This document shows positions 16,044 through 30,217 of a stretch of 64,000 nt of DNA, piece after piece. Below the pieces are notes generated by a model that was given only the letters and a program-made list of their open reading frames with translations, ran no database searches and had not been told where the DNA came from. This DNA comes from Caldifarciminota bacterium. GTDB taxonomy: Bacteria; Hydrothermota; UBA3072. Position numbers and translations under genes: made by a program. How positions within the stretch are numbered: the first letter of the stretch is position 1; the number at the start of each line of letters is the position of its first letter. The stretch is taken from positions 1-64,000 of the forward strand of contig JAFGHJ010000007.1 in assembly GCA_016930175.1 (NCBI GenBank). The letters are read 5' to 3'.

Positions 16044-16811
16044 CTAATTTTCATTTACATAAGGATAAAACCTTATCCAATCAATTTGGTATATACACTC
16101 TGTATTCTCTACCGGGGGACCATTGATCCAATTTTCCTGCGACCAGAAGTTGAACTTAAGTTGATATTCAGAATCGATTACTATATCATTTTCACTATAA
16201 GTATAGGTTAAAAGGATAAGATCGTCTACAAACCACTGAACATACAGAGGAGTAATCTCAAAACCCCAAACATGAAAATCATCCGATGGATTAAAATCCA
16301 ATTCGATATCAGGATTAGTATTAAAACTATTGAGACCAACCGCATGCACAGCGAAGTGGACCTCACCTGAATTATCAGCAAAGGTATAGGTTAAAAACTC
16401 GATATCAATTTCCTGTTTAGTCCCATCACCATCATCCCAGTCAATAGTATACATCGAGTTAAGAACACCGGGTACAGACGAAGGCTTTAATCTTGCTTCC
16501 CAACGGCCGTATAAGAATTCCTCACGTGTCTGGATTGCTGAGCTCAAATAACCTTCTGCTGAATCATTTATAAAAACCAGATTCAAGTATCCATTCTCCG
16601 AATAACATCTTCCCCGCCCGGTTTGACCATCATGCTCTACCCAAGTAGCTATCTGCCAAACAGACTCATTGATTGACACATCATTAAAATCATCTTCAAA
16701 TTGAGTTTCTGTACTAATAGAACCATTATCATTTTCGTTATCATCAAACAAATTGCATGACATTGTAAATAAAATAAAAATTATGCAAATAATGGAAAAT
16801 TTCCTAGGCAT
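16044..16811 (-). CDS. GH16 endo-beta-glucanase-type lipoprotein
   Basis: 255 residues from the ATG at 16811 (AGGGAATAT upstream). Lipobox FTMSC (C19), short acidic linker, then one GH16 jelly-roll domain. The catalytic motif is QEIDIEFL: E134 nucleophile, D136, E138 acid/base, in the form without the beta-bulge Met that lichenases and xyloglucan-active members share. YGRWEARLKPSSVPGVLNSMY and HVWGFEITPLYVQWFVDD are the usual flanking strands. The substrate could be mixed-linkage glucan, xyloglucan or a galactan. It is divergent from the GH74-like gene, which fits xyloglucan. Strong consensus promoter upstream. Confidence 0.88.
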   Translation of the reverse strand: MPRKFSIICIIFILFTMSCNLFDDNENDNGSISTETQFEDDFNDVSINESVWQIATWVEHDGQTGRGRCYSENGYLNLVFINDSAEGYLSSAIQTREEFLYGRWEARLKPSSVPGVLNSMYTIDWDDGDGTKQEIDIEFLTYTFADNSGEVHFAVHAVGLNSFNTNPDIELDFNPSDDFHVWGFEITPLYVQWFVDDLILLTYTYSENDIVIDSEYQLKFNFWSQENWINGPPVENTECIYQIDWIRFYPYVNEN

Positions 16812-16844
16812 ATATTCCCTCCAGTAAAAACTCATATATTAAAT

Positions 16845-16873: not shown

Positions 16874-16919
16874 CTAATTCTTAAACATAAGACTTTGTAT
16901 TTTTATAAAAAATATAGAA

Positions 16920-16975
16920 TATTCGTGCTATTTGTGTGATTCGTTGCTAATAAGCTTGCTGGCTCGTTAGAGTAA
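16920..16975. repeat. ATTCGTGCTATTTGTGTG word repeat
   Basis: Period-9 words followed by GCTTGCTGGCTCGTTAG, upstream of and reading towards the plus-strand promoter at 16986. Confidence 0.55.
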
Positions 16976-17079: not shown

Positions 17080-19590
17080 ATGTCTATTAAACAAAAAATC
17101 ACCAGTTGCTCGAAGGTTAAGATGGCTTTTAGCATTTTGTTTGAGGTTGTTTTCTTTTTCCTTGCGGGGGTGGGCTTCTCGCAGGGGGTTGAATACACAT
17201 GGGAACCGCTACGGATCGGCGCCGGAGGATGGGTCACGGGAATGGACATTGCGCCAGACGGGACAAAAGTGGTACGTACGGATACCTATGGAGCGTATCT
17301 GTGGAGCGACTTGGACCCGCAATGGAAACAATTGGTGACCGTCGCGAGCATGCCAGCCGAGGACCACAGGGTGGATTACGGCGTGGGCGTGTATGAGATC
17401 CGGATCGCGCCGAGCAACCCGAACCGCTTCTACATGATGTATATGGGGGAAGTTTACCGGAGCGAGGACAAGGGCAGCCCGTGGACGAAGACGTCTTTTG
17501 TCCGCGTCAGCGCCGACCCGAACGACGGTTACCGGATGCATGGCCGAAAAATGGCCATTGATCCTGTCAACCCGGACGTCGTGTACGCCGGCACGACGAA
17601 CGACGGTTTGTGGATAACCGCAGACGAAGGCGCGAGTTGGGCTCAGGTGGCGGCCGTGCCGAACGGCGCGGTCGACGAGGGGGGCATGACCGGCATCGCT
17701 TTCGACCCCTCCTCCGGCCAAACTGACGGCAAGACCAACACGATTTACGTCTGCAGTTGGGGGAACGGTGTGTACCGCTCCGATGATGCCGGCGATTCCT
17801 GGGCACTGACGACAGGTGGACCGGCGACGGTCCATCACGGAATCGTGTCAAACGAAGTCTATTATGCTGTGGATGGAACAACAGCATGGAAGTACGAGGG
17901 CTCGTCCTGGACCGATATGAACCCTCCGGTGAGGGATTGGCATACCGTGGCAATAGATCCCGAGGACCCCCACCGGGTGGTTTTGGGCGGCAGCGGAGGT
18001 TACCTGTGCCAGTCGTTAGACGGGGGCAATACTTGGGGCGACATCATATGGGGTCCGGAAGGTTCCGCTACCAGGGTTGCCGATGATATCCCCTGGCTGG
18101 CTTGGACAACAGAAACCTACATGTCCAGCGGGGATATGGTCTTTGATCCCATCACGCAAAACAAGCTATGGTTCGTTGAAGGCATCGGCGTGTGGTTTGC
18201 CACGGATTTCACGCGCGACGACATGGAATGGAATGATGTCATAACCTGGAATTCGCAAACCCGGGGCATTGAGAATCTGTGCGCGTGCCAAATCGTCGTC
18301 CCTCCGGACGGGAAACCGGTCGTCATCTCCATGGACAGGCCGATTTTCTACGTCGATAATCCCGACGCGTATCCCACCCAGCATGGGCCGGACAGGGATT
18401 ATCCCACCAATTCGGGTTGGGACGGCGATTACGCCATCGACGATCCAAAGTACATTGCCGCGCTCGTCAATTGGAGCGGCCGGGAGAGAAGCGGCTATTC
18501 CACCGACGGCGGACAGACGTGGCAACCGTTCGCCACGTTGCCCGACGACTACAAATTAGGAGGTTGTATGGCCGTCAGCACCGCGGGCAACATCGTGTGG
18601 ATTCCTGAAAACAACGGCGTTCCCTATTACACCAAAGACAACGGCGCGACCTGGACCCAGTGCGAGTTCCCGGGAGCTCCCACATCGGACGAGACCGGCT
18701 GGGGTTTTCTTTTTTGGCTCGACCGGAATATCGTCGCGGCCGATTGGGTCACGCCGGGAAAGTTCTACGCCTTCAATTACATCGCGGGGCTGTATTCATC
18801 GTCGGACGGCGGGGACACCTGGACGTTGATCAAGCCCGGATCGATGCAAATGGGGGATGGCTGGAACGCTAAACTCCGGACCGTGCCGGGGCGGGAGGGA
18901 CATCTCTTTTTCACGGTGGGCCACCAGGGGGGCGGCCTGGGCGACACCAATCCGGCTAACTATGCCAATCTTATGCGGTCGACGGACGGCGGGTTCAACT
19001 GGACAACTCTGTCCAACGTGAAGGAAGTATACGACATCGGCTTCGGCCGGCAGGCCGTGGCCGGCGGGTACCCCGCGGTCTTCATCTCCGGGTGGGTTGA
19101 CGACGTGTGGGGTGTCTGGCGGTCCATTGACAACTGCGCCACCTGGGAGAAGATCGGGGATTTCCCGCTGGGGAGCCTTGATATGGTCAAGGTGGTGGCG
19201 GGGGATCCGAATATTTACGGCCGCGTGTATCTGGGTTTTTCGGGTTCCGGTTATGCCTACGGAGACCCTGCATCCGGCGGGTCGGGAGAGGGCGAACTAA
19301 ACGTTCCCCAAAGGATTATCTTGTATCAAAATTACCCCAATCCCTTCAGTTCTGCAACAACCATCAGGTATCAATTGTCCGCAGTTAGCACTATCAAGCT
19401 TAGCGTCTACGATATACTGGGGCGTGAAGTAGCGACTTTAGCAGAAGGAATAAGGTGCCCAGGATATTATTCGGAAACTATGGACGGCTCGAAACTCACA
19501 AGCGGGATTTACTTTGTAAGGTTTGTGGCAAATCCGAAAAACGGCGGGAAGCAGTTTATTCAGATAAAGAAGGCGGTATTAACAAAGTAA
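17080..19590 (+). CDS. Secreted GH74-like xyloglucanase with C-terminal sorting domain
   Basis: 836 residues: signal peptide (about 1-35), a double beta-propeller of GH74/sortilin type with many Asp-box/BNR repeats (about 38-740; YRSEDKGSPWTKT, YRSDDAGDSWALT, YSSSDGGDTWTLI), then a FlgD-like sorting module (about 745-836; LYQNYPNPFSSATTI to the end). D68 in VRTDTYGAYLW aligns with the catalytic base region of GH74 endo-xyloglucanases, and VAADWVTPGKFYAFN is another family motif. The core (about 17190-19300) is far more GC-rich than both ends of the same gene and than all neighbours, which points to acquisition of the catalytic part. SD TAGGAGAAAA. Confidence 0.8.
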   Translation: MSIKQKITSCSKVKMAFSILFEVVFFFLAGVGFSQGVEYTWEPLRIGAGGWVTGMDIAPDGTKVVRTDTYGAYLWSDLDPQWKQLVTVASMPAEDHRVDYGVGVYEIRIAPSNPNRFYMMYMGEVYRSEDKGSPWTKTSFVRVSADPNDGYRMHGRKMAIDPVNPDVVYAGTTNDGLWITADEGASWAQVAAVPNGAVDEGGMTGIAFDPSSGQTDGKTNTIYVCSWGNGVYRSDDAGDSWALTTGGPATVHHGIVSNEVYYAVDGTTAWKYEGSSWTDMNPPVRDWHTVAIDPEDPHRVVLGGSGGYLCQSLDGGNTWGDIIWGPEGSATRVADDIPWLAWTTETYMSSGDMVFDPITQNKLWFVEGIGVWFATDFTRDDMEWNDVITWNSQTRGIENLCACQIVVPPDGKPVVISMDRPIFYVDNPDAYPTQHGPDRDYPTNSGWDGDYAIDDPKYIAALVNWSGRERSGYSTDGGQTWQPFATLPDDYKLGGCMAVSTAGNIVWIPENNGVPYYTKDNGATWTQCEFPGAPTSDETGWGFLFWLDRNIVAADWVTPGKFYAFNYIAGLYSSSDGGDTWTLIKPGSMQMGDGWNAKLRTVPGREGHLFFTVGHQGGGLGDTNPANYANLMRSTDGGFNWTTLSNVKEVYDIGFGRQAVAGGYPAVFISGWVDDVWGVWRSIDNCATWEKIGDFPLGSLDMVKVVAGDPNIYGRVYLGFSGSGYAYGDPASGGSGEGELNVPQRIILYQNYPNPFSSATTIRYQLSAVSTIKLSVYDILGREVATLAEGIRCPGYYSETMDGSKLTSGIYFVRFVANPKNGGKQFIQIKKAVLTK

Positions 19591-19671: not shown

Positions 19672-19797
19672 TGATTTCCGTGCTGAAAAATTTAGAATAT
19701 TCGTGCTATTTGTTGTTTCTATCAGTTGTTGTGGGGGTCATATCTAGTAAAGTGAAAACAGAAATCTTGCATTAATTTTGTGTAATATGTAGTTCTT
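19672..19797. repeat. Word repeats before the nnr promoter
   Basis: ATTCGTGCTATTTGTTG (about 19693-19709) and TTTTGTGTAATATGTAG (about 19777-19793), both reading towards the promoter at 19812. Confidence 0.5.
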
Positions 19798-27289: not shown

Positions 27290-30217
27290 ATGAACATTAA
27301 ATACAATATCTCGGAAAACAATTGTCGATTTCGTAAACTTTTCTACTTCATACTGCTCTTCCTTATTATAATTACCTCCTGCTCAGCCGCTAAAAAGTCC
27401 ATAGATTACACATCATACATTTCTGTTAACAAAGGTGAAGGACGTTTTATACTCTCGTCTTCCGGAAAATCCGCACCGTTGTACGTAAGTTCCGAAGATT
27501 ACCCCGGAGTAATAAAGGTGGCAAAACTTTTTCAGGCGGACATCGAAAGAGTAACGGACTCCAAACCGGAAATATTTGTAGATGAAGTTCCAAAATCAAA
27601 AGAAATAGTAATAATCGGAACAATCGGAAAAAGTAAAATAATAGATAAATTAGTTACGAATAAAAAAATAGATGTAGAAGATACTAAAGGAAAATGGGAA
27701 ACATTTACAAGACAGGTTGTAGAAAACCCGCTTCCCGGCATAACACGAGCTCTGGTTATCGTGGGGAGCGATAAGCGCGGCACAATATACGGCATGTTCG
27801 ACCTATCGGAAAAAATCGGAGTCTCACCATGGTACTACTGGGCTGATGTACCTGTTAAAAAAAATAGAAATCTTTATGTTTCACCTGAACCGTACAGCCT
27901 CGGAGAACCGGCTGTAAAATACAGGGGAATATTCATAAATGACGAAGCTCCCGCACTTACAGGGTGGGCTTTTGAAAAATTCGGCGGGTTTAATTCTAAA
28001 TTCTACAAAAAAGTATTCGAACTTATACTTAGATTGAAAGGAAACTATCTCTGGCCTGCCATGTGGGGCAGAGCTTTCTATGTTGATGACACTCTAAACC
28101 CGAAACTGGCGGACGAATATGGAATCGTAATAGGAACTTCTCACCACGAACCTTTAATGCGGGCTCATGACGAATGGAGACGATTTGGTTCGGGAAGATG
28201 GAATTATGAATTAAACGAAGCGAGCTTAAAGGAATTCTGGCGGGAAGGTATCCAAAGAATGGATGGATATGAAAGTATAGTTACAATAGGCATGCGGGGA
28301 GACGGCGATGAACCCATGACCGAAGGAACCGCCATCGCGCTCCTTGAAAGAATAGTAAAAGACCAGAGAGAGATCATCGAAGAAGTAACCGGGAAGCCTG
28401 CTTCCGCCACTCCCCAGGATTGGGCTCTATATAAAGAAGTCCAGGACTATTACGATGGAGGGATGAGAGTTCCGGACGACGTAACATTACTCCTGTGCGA
28501 TGACAACTGGGGCAACGTAAGAAGGCTTCCGAAGTTGAGCGATTCGCCGCGCTCAGGCGGCTACGGTATGTACTATCACTTCGATTTCGTGGGAGGACCC
28601 AGAAGCTACCGATGGTTAAACACCAATCAAATATCAAGAATATGGGAACAGATGCACCTGTCCTACGCTTACGGAGTCGAGGAAATCTGGATCGTCAATG
28701 TGGGCGATATAAAACCCATGGAATTCCCGACTCAATTTTTCCTGGACTATGCATGGAATCTCGAGAAATGGCCCGCGGAAAGACTTCCGGAATACACAAA
28801 ACTATGGACAAAACAGCAATTCGGTGAGAAGTACGCCGATGAAATAGCGGATATTTTAACAAAGTATACAAAATACAACTCACGAAGAAAACCTGAATCT
28901 ATCGATTCTTCAACCTACAACCTTACCGATTACAGAGAAGCAGAAAGGGTTATTGCGGATTACAACCAAATAGCTTTCGAAGCCGAAAACATTTATCAAG
29001 AACTACCTTCAGAATTCAAAGATGCTTATTACCAGTTAGTATTATTCCCTGTAAAAGCATGCGCGAATATAAACGAAATGCATGTTACGGTAGGAAAAAA
29101 TTACTTGTACGCAAAACAGGGGCGCGCGGCAACAAATATGCTGGCAGAGAAAGTAAAGAAACTCTTCACATTAGACGCCGAATTGACAGAATATTATCAC
29201 ACAAAAATGGCTAACGGAAAATGGAATCACATGATGTCTCAATCGCACATTGGTTATACCAGCTGGGATAATCCTCCGCAAAATATAATGCCGCCGGTAA
29301 AAGAAATAAAAATACCAAGCAAGGCAGAAATGGGAGTGGCAATCGAAGGTTCGGATAAATGGTGGCCGGATACCCCCGGACAAGCGGTATTGCCCGAATT
29401 CGATTGCTATAATCAGCAGAAATATTATATAGAAATATTTAACCGAGGAACCCTTCCTTTTGACTTCAAAATATCCTGCGAAGAACCCTGGATAATAATA
29501 TCAGATAAAGAGGGTAAAATAGATAAAGAGAAACGCATCTATTTAGAAATAAATTGGGAAAAGGCACCTAAAGGCATTTATTGCGCACCGATTGAGATAA
29601 AAAGTTCTAATAATAAAACAGTTACGATTAAAGCTCCTATTAGCAACACCGAATATCCGAAGAGAGATGAAATAAAAGGTTTTGTGGAGAGCAACGGTTA
29701 CGTCTCCATGGAAGCAGAACACTATACCCGTGCAGTGGAGAGTAATAATATCAGTTGGCTAACAATACCAGATTTTGGCCGAACTCTATCAGGAATAACT
29801 CCGGTTCCAGTTACAGCAAAGAAACAAACAACGGGAGGAAACAGTCCGCATTTAGAGTATAAAATGTATTTGTTTAACAGCGGTAAAGTAAAAGTCAAAG
29901 CGTACTTCTCTCCAACGCAAAACTTCCACAATAAAGAAGGACTTCATTACGGTATTTCATTCGATGATGAAACGGCGAAAATAATGAATGTTCATAAAAA
30001 TGACACGATTCCAGACTGGAAATATCCCCCAACCTGGAACCAGGCTGTAATGGAGAATATAAAAATTATATCTTCTGAGCACCTGATCGAAAATCCGGGC
30101 GAACACACTTTAAAATTCTGGATGATCGATCCCGGACTGGTTCTTCAAAAAATAGTTGTAGAAACAAAAGAAATACCGGCTTCTTATCTCGGTCCACCGG
30201 AAAGTTTCCACAAATAG
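27290..30217 (+). CDS. GH115 xylan alpha-1,2-glucuronidase lipoprotein
   Basis: 975 residues. Lipobox IITSC (C31), an N-terminal alpha/beta domain (about 45-200), the GH115 barrel (about 205-560; KYRGIFINDEAPALTGWAF, LKGNYLWPAMWGRAF, GTSHHEPLMRAHDEW, TIGMRGDGDEPM, LLLCDDNWGNVR), a helical domain (about 560-700) and a C-terminal beta-sandwich domain (about 790-965). GH115 removes (4-O-methyl)glucuronic acid from xylan, including internal residues. Length and domain order are complete. No SD is present and the promoter abuts the ATG. It is convergent with the xylose operon, with one shared terminator, which fits glucuronoxylan use. Confidence 0.95.
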   Translation: MNIKYNISENNCRFRKLFYFILLFLIIITSCSAAKKSIDYTSYISVNKGEGRFILSSSGKSAPLYVSSEDYPGVIKVAKLFQADIERVTDSKPEIFVDEVPKSKEIVIIGTIGKSKIIDKLVTNKKIDVEDTKGKWETFTRQVVENPLPGITRALVIVGSDKRGTIYGMFDLSEKIGVSPWYYWADVPVKKNRNLYVSPEPYSLGEPAVKYRGIFINDEAPALTGWAFEKFGGFNSKFYKKVFELILRLKGNYLWPAMWGRAFYVDDTLNPKLADEYGIVIGTSHHEPLMRAHDEWRRFGSGRWNYELNEASLKEFWREGIQRMDGYESIVTIGMRGDGDEPMTEGTAIALLERIVKDQREIIEEVTGKPASATPQDWALYKEVQDYYDGGMRVPDDVTLLLCDDNWGNVRRLPKLSDSPRSGGYGMYYHFDFVGGPRSYRWLNTNQISRIWEQMHLSYAYGVEEIWIVNVGDIKPMEFPTQFFLDYAWNLEKWPAERLPEYTKLWTKQQFGEKYADEIADILTKYTKYNSRRKPESIDSSTYNLTDYREAERVIADYNQIAFEAENIYQELPSEFKDAYYQLVLFPVKACANINEMHVTVGKNYLYAKQGRAATNMLAEKVKKLFTLDAELTEYYHTKMANGKWNHMMSQSHIGYTSWDNPPQNIMPPVKEIKIPSKAEMGVAIEGSDKWWPDTPGQAVLPEFDCYNQQKYYIEIFNRGTLPFDFKISCEEPWIIISDKEGKIDKEKRIYLEINWEKAPKGIYCAPIEIKSSNNKTVTIKAPISNTEYPKRDEIKGFVESNGYVSMEAEHYTRAVESNNISWLTIPDFGRTLSGITPVPVTAKKQTTGGNSPHLEYKMYLFNSGKVKVKAYFSPTQNFHNKEGLHYGISFDDETAKIMNVHKNDTIPDWKYPPTWNQAVMENIKIISSEHLIENPGEHTLKFWMIDPGLVLQKIVVETKEIPASYLGPPESFHK

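Follow-up and report, generated by a model that had tools for sequence, protein, structure and literature searches.

Within the window analysed here, a stretch of 64,000 nucleotides from a Caldifarciminota bacterium, the gene at 17080–19590 encodes a chimeric protein in which a GC-rich domain, predicted to be a GH74-like glycoside hydrolase, lies between an AT-rich putative signal peptide and a T9SS sorting tail. The reading that we favour, with a probability of roughly 0.7, is that a GH74-like domain of the kind associated with exopolysaccharide (EPS) loci and phages was captured from a GC-rich source, is exported by the T9SS of the host and cuts bacterial polysaccharide. The capture itself is well supported; the donor (a phage or a proteobacterium) and the substrate are proposed on the basis of the relatives, and the direction and place of the fusion, the order of events, Sec export and delivery by the T9SS are likewise proposed. 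The computational evidence comprises the composition step, the fold, the catalytic residues, the clade, the tail family, the separate histories of core and tail, and the translocon. The parts of the gene are as follows.

17080–19590, + strand: whole chimeric ORF, 836 aa plus stop
17080–17163, + strand: AT-rich N-terminus (GC 0.32), resembling by eye a Sec-type signal peptide in its n- and h-region (MSIKQKITSCSKVKMAFSILFEVVFFFL)
17164–19293, + strand: GC-rich core (GC3 0.73), predicted GH74-like tandem beta-propeller hydrolase domain (6p2m match and AlphaFold2 model)
17281–17283, + strand: codon of Asp68, the predicted first catalytic Asp of GH74, in an RTD motif (alignment to 2cn2)
18334–18336, + strand: codon of Asp419, the predicted second catalytic Asp, in SMDRP (aligned to the GD of canonical GH74)
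19294–19587, + strand: linker and T9SS type A C-terminal sorting domain (PF18962, TIGR04183)

ORF calling on the window returned the chimera as a real ORF with an ATG start, and direct reading of the sequence places a Shine-Dalgarno-like AGGAG ahead of it. Along the ORF, the GC content goes from about 0.28 to 0.60 and then to 0.37. The borders were located by a maximum-likelihood fit with two change-points, which placed the first at 17164 (support range 17158–17167) and the second at 19294 (support range 19282–19321). The likelihood gain was 25.1 log units; 200 shuffles of the codon order gave 16.2 at most. The core has a GC of 0.595 and a GC3 of 0.727, while residues 1–28 have a GC of 0.32 and the tail (19300–19587) has a GC of 0.434 and a GC3 of 0.49. 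Both steps coincide with domain edges: the first joint follows the hydrophobic part of the signal peptide (after residue 28), and the second one in a Ser/Gly linker between the last propeller strand and the tail. The segment 17164–19293 starts with the last signal-peptide residues and ends in this linker. The first-pass annotation had described a GC-rich core in an AT-rich shell with borders at about 17190 and 19300. The change-point fit, the codon-order shuffles and the comparison with the host confirm the core and its shell, and both steps exist, although the first border lies slightly upstream of 17190, inside the signal peptide.

The host sample covered 1.505 Mb (64% of the genome) and contained 1,073 ORFs of at least 150 aa, with a GC of 0.384 (sd 0.034) and a GC3 of 0.347 (sd 0.046). 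With a GC3 of 0.694, the chimera is the only one of these 1,073 ORFs above 0.54, the next-highest ORF reaching 0.535. In codon use the core scored −0.178 per codon, and 704-codon pieces of host sequence scored 0.065 (sd 0.021). That the two ends match the local style, as had been claimed, holds in part: the GC3 of the tail is inside the range of the 29 other tails of the same genome (maximum 0.50), but both tail and signal peptide sit at the upper edge, at about the 99th percentile of GC3 among host pieces of equal length. Because of this position, the fusion may have taken place in a different T9SS lineage of slightly higher GC. The 29 other tailed ORFs with loci have an upstream GC3 of 0.28–0.50. 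Neither these ORFs nor any other ORF in the 1.5 Mb contain another GC-rich core, and a looser scan that gave 34 tail-like genes revealed none with a comparable one. The chimera is a lone case within the genome portion sampled, and the suggestion that it pictures a general route by which this lineage builds its surface enzymes is not sustained by a single case with no counterpart among the 29.

The N-terminus has, by eye, a charged n-region and a hydrophobic h-region. The tail matches PF18962 with 36.8 bits (cut-off 27) and TIGR04183 with 32.8 bits (cut-off 23), and 65 matches to the tail family are present in the host genome. The evidence for a translocon comes from a search for SprA among the T9SS components, in which SprA_N was found in a 1817-aa ORF on C30 with 32.2 bits together with its neighbours (cut-off 27). 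Like T9SS type A cargo (PF18962/TIGR04183) in general, the chimera shows a Ser/Gly linker followed by the sorting domain, a putative N-terminal signal peptide and a translocon encoded in the genome; unlike the 29 other tailed ORFs examined, it carries a passenger that is foreign by composition and by phylogeny.

The nearest tail comes from the same genus (49% identity, SH-aLRT 97 on few columns), and the relatives' tails in the tree were the best matches to the tail of the chimera, a choice that favours a near one. The genomes sampled represent, among the T9SS phyla, that of the host, and what is informative in the tail tree is that the tail pairs with one of the same genus and not with those of other families. 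No close paralogue of the tail was found in the host genome, where the best match reaches 41%. Since the sister tail sits on an unrelated, 2125-aa peptidase-like protein (family assigned by eye) without GH74, core and tail have different histories. Separate phylogenies, which the first-pass annotation had called for, accordingly lead from the core to a phage and alphaproteobacterial clade and from the tail to the same genus, and none of the 146 other genomes of the phylum carries both the core and the GC contrast.

The core matches PDB entry 6p2m over its full length (E = 3.1e-71, query residues 7–701 of 710). An AlphaFold2 model with a pLDDT mostly of 85–98 and disorder at residues 1–35 gave TM scores by target length of 0.80–0.82 to bacterial GH74 structures, and the top 25 PDB fold matches of the core model are all GH74. 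On this model, the core is predicted to adopt a complete GH74 fold of tandem seven-bladed beta-propellers. Asp68 aligns to residue 43 of the 2cn2 chain, a position at which the mutant chain 2cn3 has Ala. Asp419 corresponds to column D389 of the core and is invariant in alignments A1 and A5; its predicted role as the second catalytic residue follows the GH74 literature. Both aspartates are invariant in 23 of 23 rows of the clade described below. The core thus shares with the GH74 endo-xyloglucanases ClGH74A (6p2m) and Xgh74A of C. thermocellum (2cn2) the two-propeller fold throughout (TM about 0.81) and both catalytic Asp. In contrast to them, it has a T9SS tail and relatives in EPS or phage loci, shows 25–29% identity to them on a long separate branch, and lacks the Trp pair of the canonical cleft (NAWWPDE in 2cn2 and 6mgj), which finds no counterpart in the core. 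No family for the core was found in PHROGs, and no full-length match to the core model in the viral fold library.

A search of the 146 other genomes of the phylum yielded no full-length relative of the core, only short BNR-repeat similarities. The plasmid collection contained distant GH74 only, with about 24–30% identity where most of the core was covered, the phage collection a single distant record only, and a scan of genome contigs with the core protein alone as query gave no match. The relatives in genome contigs came from a scan with an alignment that included phage sequences; the collection scan demands exact short peptide patterns and may miss relatives outside the phage and alphaproteobacterial groups. 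The closest relatives found are on phage contigs, with 45–46% identity over the core (46% at best, for L158 and L160), and the alphaproteobacterial relatives show 35–42% by tblastn; the best identities to L173–L175 are 41–44%. In a tree of 34 rows, the core, 11 phage rows and 14 alphaproteobacterial rows form one clade with a support of 100/100, and the same clade was recovered in a second tree built from different rows. In both trees its stem, 0.7–0.95 in length, separates it from characterised GH74, and the core does not group with the characterised xyloglucanases. The core is best described as GH74-like, with no assignment to a known GH74 subgroup.

Inside the clade, the core groups with the phages and one Methylobacterium row (90/85). 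The AU test leaves a position on the alphaproteobacterial side (p = 0.36) and a sister position (p = 0.38) unrejected; while the clade is firm, the donor may belong to either the phage or the alphaproteobacterial side, which this test does not separate. The phage GH74-like proteins (L158/L189, L160, L163, L167, L170) belong to the same 100/100 clade and cover the full core with up to 46% identity but, unlike the chimera, are located in packaging and tail modules and have no T9SS tail. The GH74-like proteins of alphaproteobacterial EPS loci (L176–L182, L185–L187) are members of the same clade with 35–38% identity by tblastn and keep the catalytic Asp; they differ from the chimera in having N-terminal extensions of their own and no T9SS tail. 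The idea of a catalytic domain captured from a high-GC source and set between export modules in the style of the lineage thus stands in a refined form, in which the source would be the phage and exopolysaccharide GH74-like clade and not the plant xyloglucanases.

At the locus itself, the chimera has a divergent neighbour and lies between two copies of a repeat.

16044–16835, − strand: GH16 lipoprotein-like glucanase, divergent neighbour (PF00722, 75.5 bits; host-like GC)
16908–16935, + strand: dispersed genomic repeat, left copy, in direct orientation and identical to the right copy at 27 of 28 positions
19686–19713, + strand: right copy of the same repeat

The GH16 glucanase is a possible functional partner of the chimera. 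Its gene (16044–16835) could also share a promoter region with that of the chimera. Further along the window, a 975-aa ORF at 27290–30217 had no NCBIfam match at E 0.01. The direct repeat that brackets the chimera is exact over 21 bp, and its family has 74 matches in the genome versus 8 for the reversed control. This dispersed intergenic repeat, AAAAATATTCGTGCTATTTGTGTGATTTGTTGTTTC..., is found at 70-odd other places in G000, and in many cases a GT-rich stretch and TTTTGTTGTTTCTCT come after it. The examined pieces of G001 and G003 gave no match to a simple pattern of this repeat. The flanking pair was considered as proof of an insertion and rejected, as the genome has about four further places where same-strand copies lie 1–5 kb from each other.

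The relatives examined differ in the slot directly upstream of yjeF. In G001, of the same genus, a transposase-like remnant was recognised by eye upstream of yjeF (L123 15069–15716, G001:C32); only some 650 bp of this contig lie ahead of yjeF, and a different contig carries thrC and the TPR gene in a rearranged setting. In G003, of the same family, the slot is occupied by a different T9SS-tailed ORF (L124 16336–19917, G003:C2). A search of G001 and G003 for a clean empty site found none. The slot fits a variable insertion site, without proving the route. It would also suit a history in which the whole chimera was assembled in another T9SS-bearing lineage and imported as a single gene, for which the insertion-like setting, with direct copies of the dispersed repeat at both sides and a slot that differs per relative, could be cited together with the slightly higher GC of tail and signal peptide than in typical host pieces and the absence of a near-identical resident tail. 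However, the tail has its closest counterpart in the same genus (SH-aLRT 97), the core was found in no other sampled genome of the phylum, and the tail GC3 of 0.49 is within the range of the 29 resident tails, and we regard such a ready-made import as unlikely.

The preferred reading, capture of a domain that cuts bacterial polysaccharide, draws its proposed substrate from the neighbourhoods of the other clade members. The phage members have genes for terminase, tail terminator, neck, tape measure, portal, tail and tail-fibre proteins in their neighbourhood; in the record IMGVR_UViG_3300037458_000563 the GH74-like gene is found at both ends, as in a circular genome. Of the 14 alphaproteobacterial loci, 11 have genes for Wzy, Wzz or glycosyltransferases at a distance of no more than about 6 kb, a raw count in which some loci are close relatives, and the loci without EPS-synthesis neighbours are L174, L175 and L183. 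EPS gene clusters often include glycosidase genes (PMC9075953). In the open-access literature, we found no paper tying GH74 to phage depolymerases or to these EPS loci. The simplest function common to the clade would be the cutting of bacterial surface polysaccharide, and for the chimera, targeting of EPS is suggested by the neighbourhoods of its relatives, not by its own locus. Alternatively, the core could be an ordinary GH74 endo-xyloglucanase that came from a soil bacterium, and the links to phages and EPS would then have no bearing on its function. Such an enzyme for plant polysaccharide would account for the GH74 fold with both catalytic Asp, for a xyloglucanase as the best solved match and for the adjoining GH16 glucanase gene, but it is at odds with the 100/100 branch of 0.7–0.95 outside characterised GH74, with relatives that lie in EPS loci or phage structural modules and with the missing counterpart of the Trp pair, and it appears doubtful to us.

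Contamination or a chimeric assembly of the genome bin, which an assembly of 48 contigs with one isolated GC-rich stretch might bring to mind, is very improbable in view of a stretch that is in frame at both ends with borders at domain edges, AT-rich host flanks within a 104-kb contig and a contamination estimate of 0.21%. Least probable of all is a structural contrast in which propeller composition demands high GC: repeats rich in Gly, Asp, Trp and Thr do raise GC1 and GC2, but GC3 carries the difference, and since the AT-rich phage homologue L170 has a GC3 of 0.34 and a resident BNR propeller bearing a T9SS tail one of 0.385, protein composition is excluded as the cause, and the structural contrast that the first-pass annotation had named as a refutation does not apply. 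The GC-rich homologues L158, L160 and L174 have a GC3 of 0.80, 0.73 and 0.81, respectively. Because of the propeller composition, the GC of the donor cannot be read reliably from GC1 and GC2.

According to the domain-capture reading, a GH74-like, two-propeller inverting glycoside hydrolase domain would have entered from a GC-rich source, from a clade otherwise sampled in phages and alphaproteobacterial exopolysaccharide loci, and would have been fused in frame with a Sec signal peptide of the host and with a T9SS tail of resident type. Sec would then carry the chimera across the inner membrane, and the T9SS with its SprA translocon would recognise the tail. Outside the cell or at the cell surface, the two aspartates of the inter-propeller cleft would cleave a bacterial surface polysaccharide at an internal bond by hydrolysis, and not plant xyloglucan. 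A bolder and only tentative version is that a phage depolymerase of an unrecognised GH74-like clade has been taken over by a bacterium and re-addressed by signal peptide and T9SS tail, as a surface enzyme directed against the slime of other bacteria.

Domain capture combined with a sorting tail is a known kind of event, and the GH74-like clade is an unusual by-product of its analysis. The chimera would record the way in which an acquired enzyme was redirected to the cell surface and, because the foreign composition of its core and its exact joints have been kept, can be used to test the assembly of a secreted enzyme from a captured domain. A GH74-like clade common to phages and exopolysaccharide loci, moreover, predicts new enzymes that cut bacterial exopolysaccharide, and its members on the viral contigs (L154–L203) and in L173–L187 are likely new EPS hydrolases. 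Long low-complexity proteins, possibly fibre-like, are encoded near phage GH74 homologues at L158 5548–8715 and L154 6735–8096; their features include a 1055-aa Ala/Ser/Thr-rich sequence and Ser-Pro-Ser-Ala repeats.
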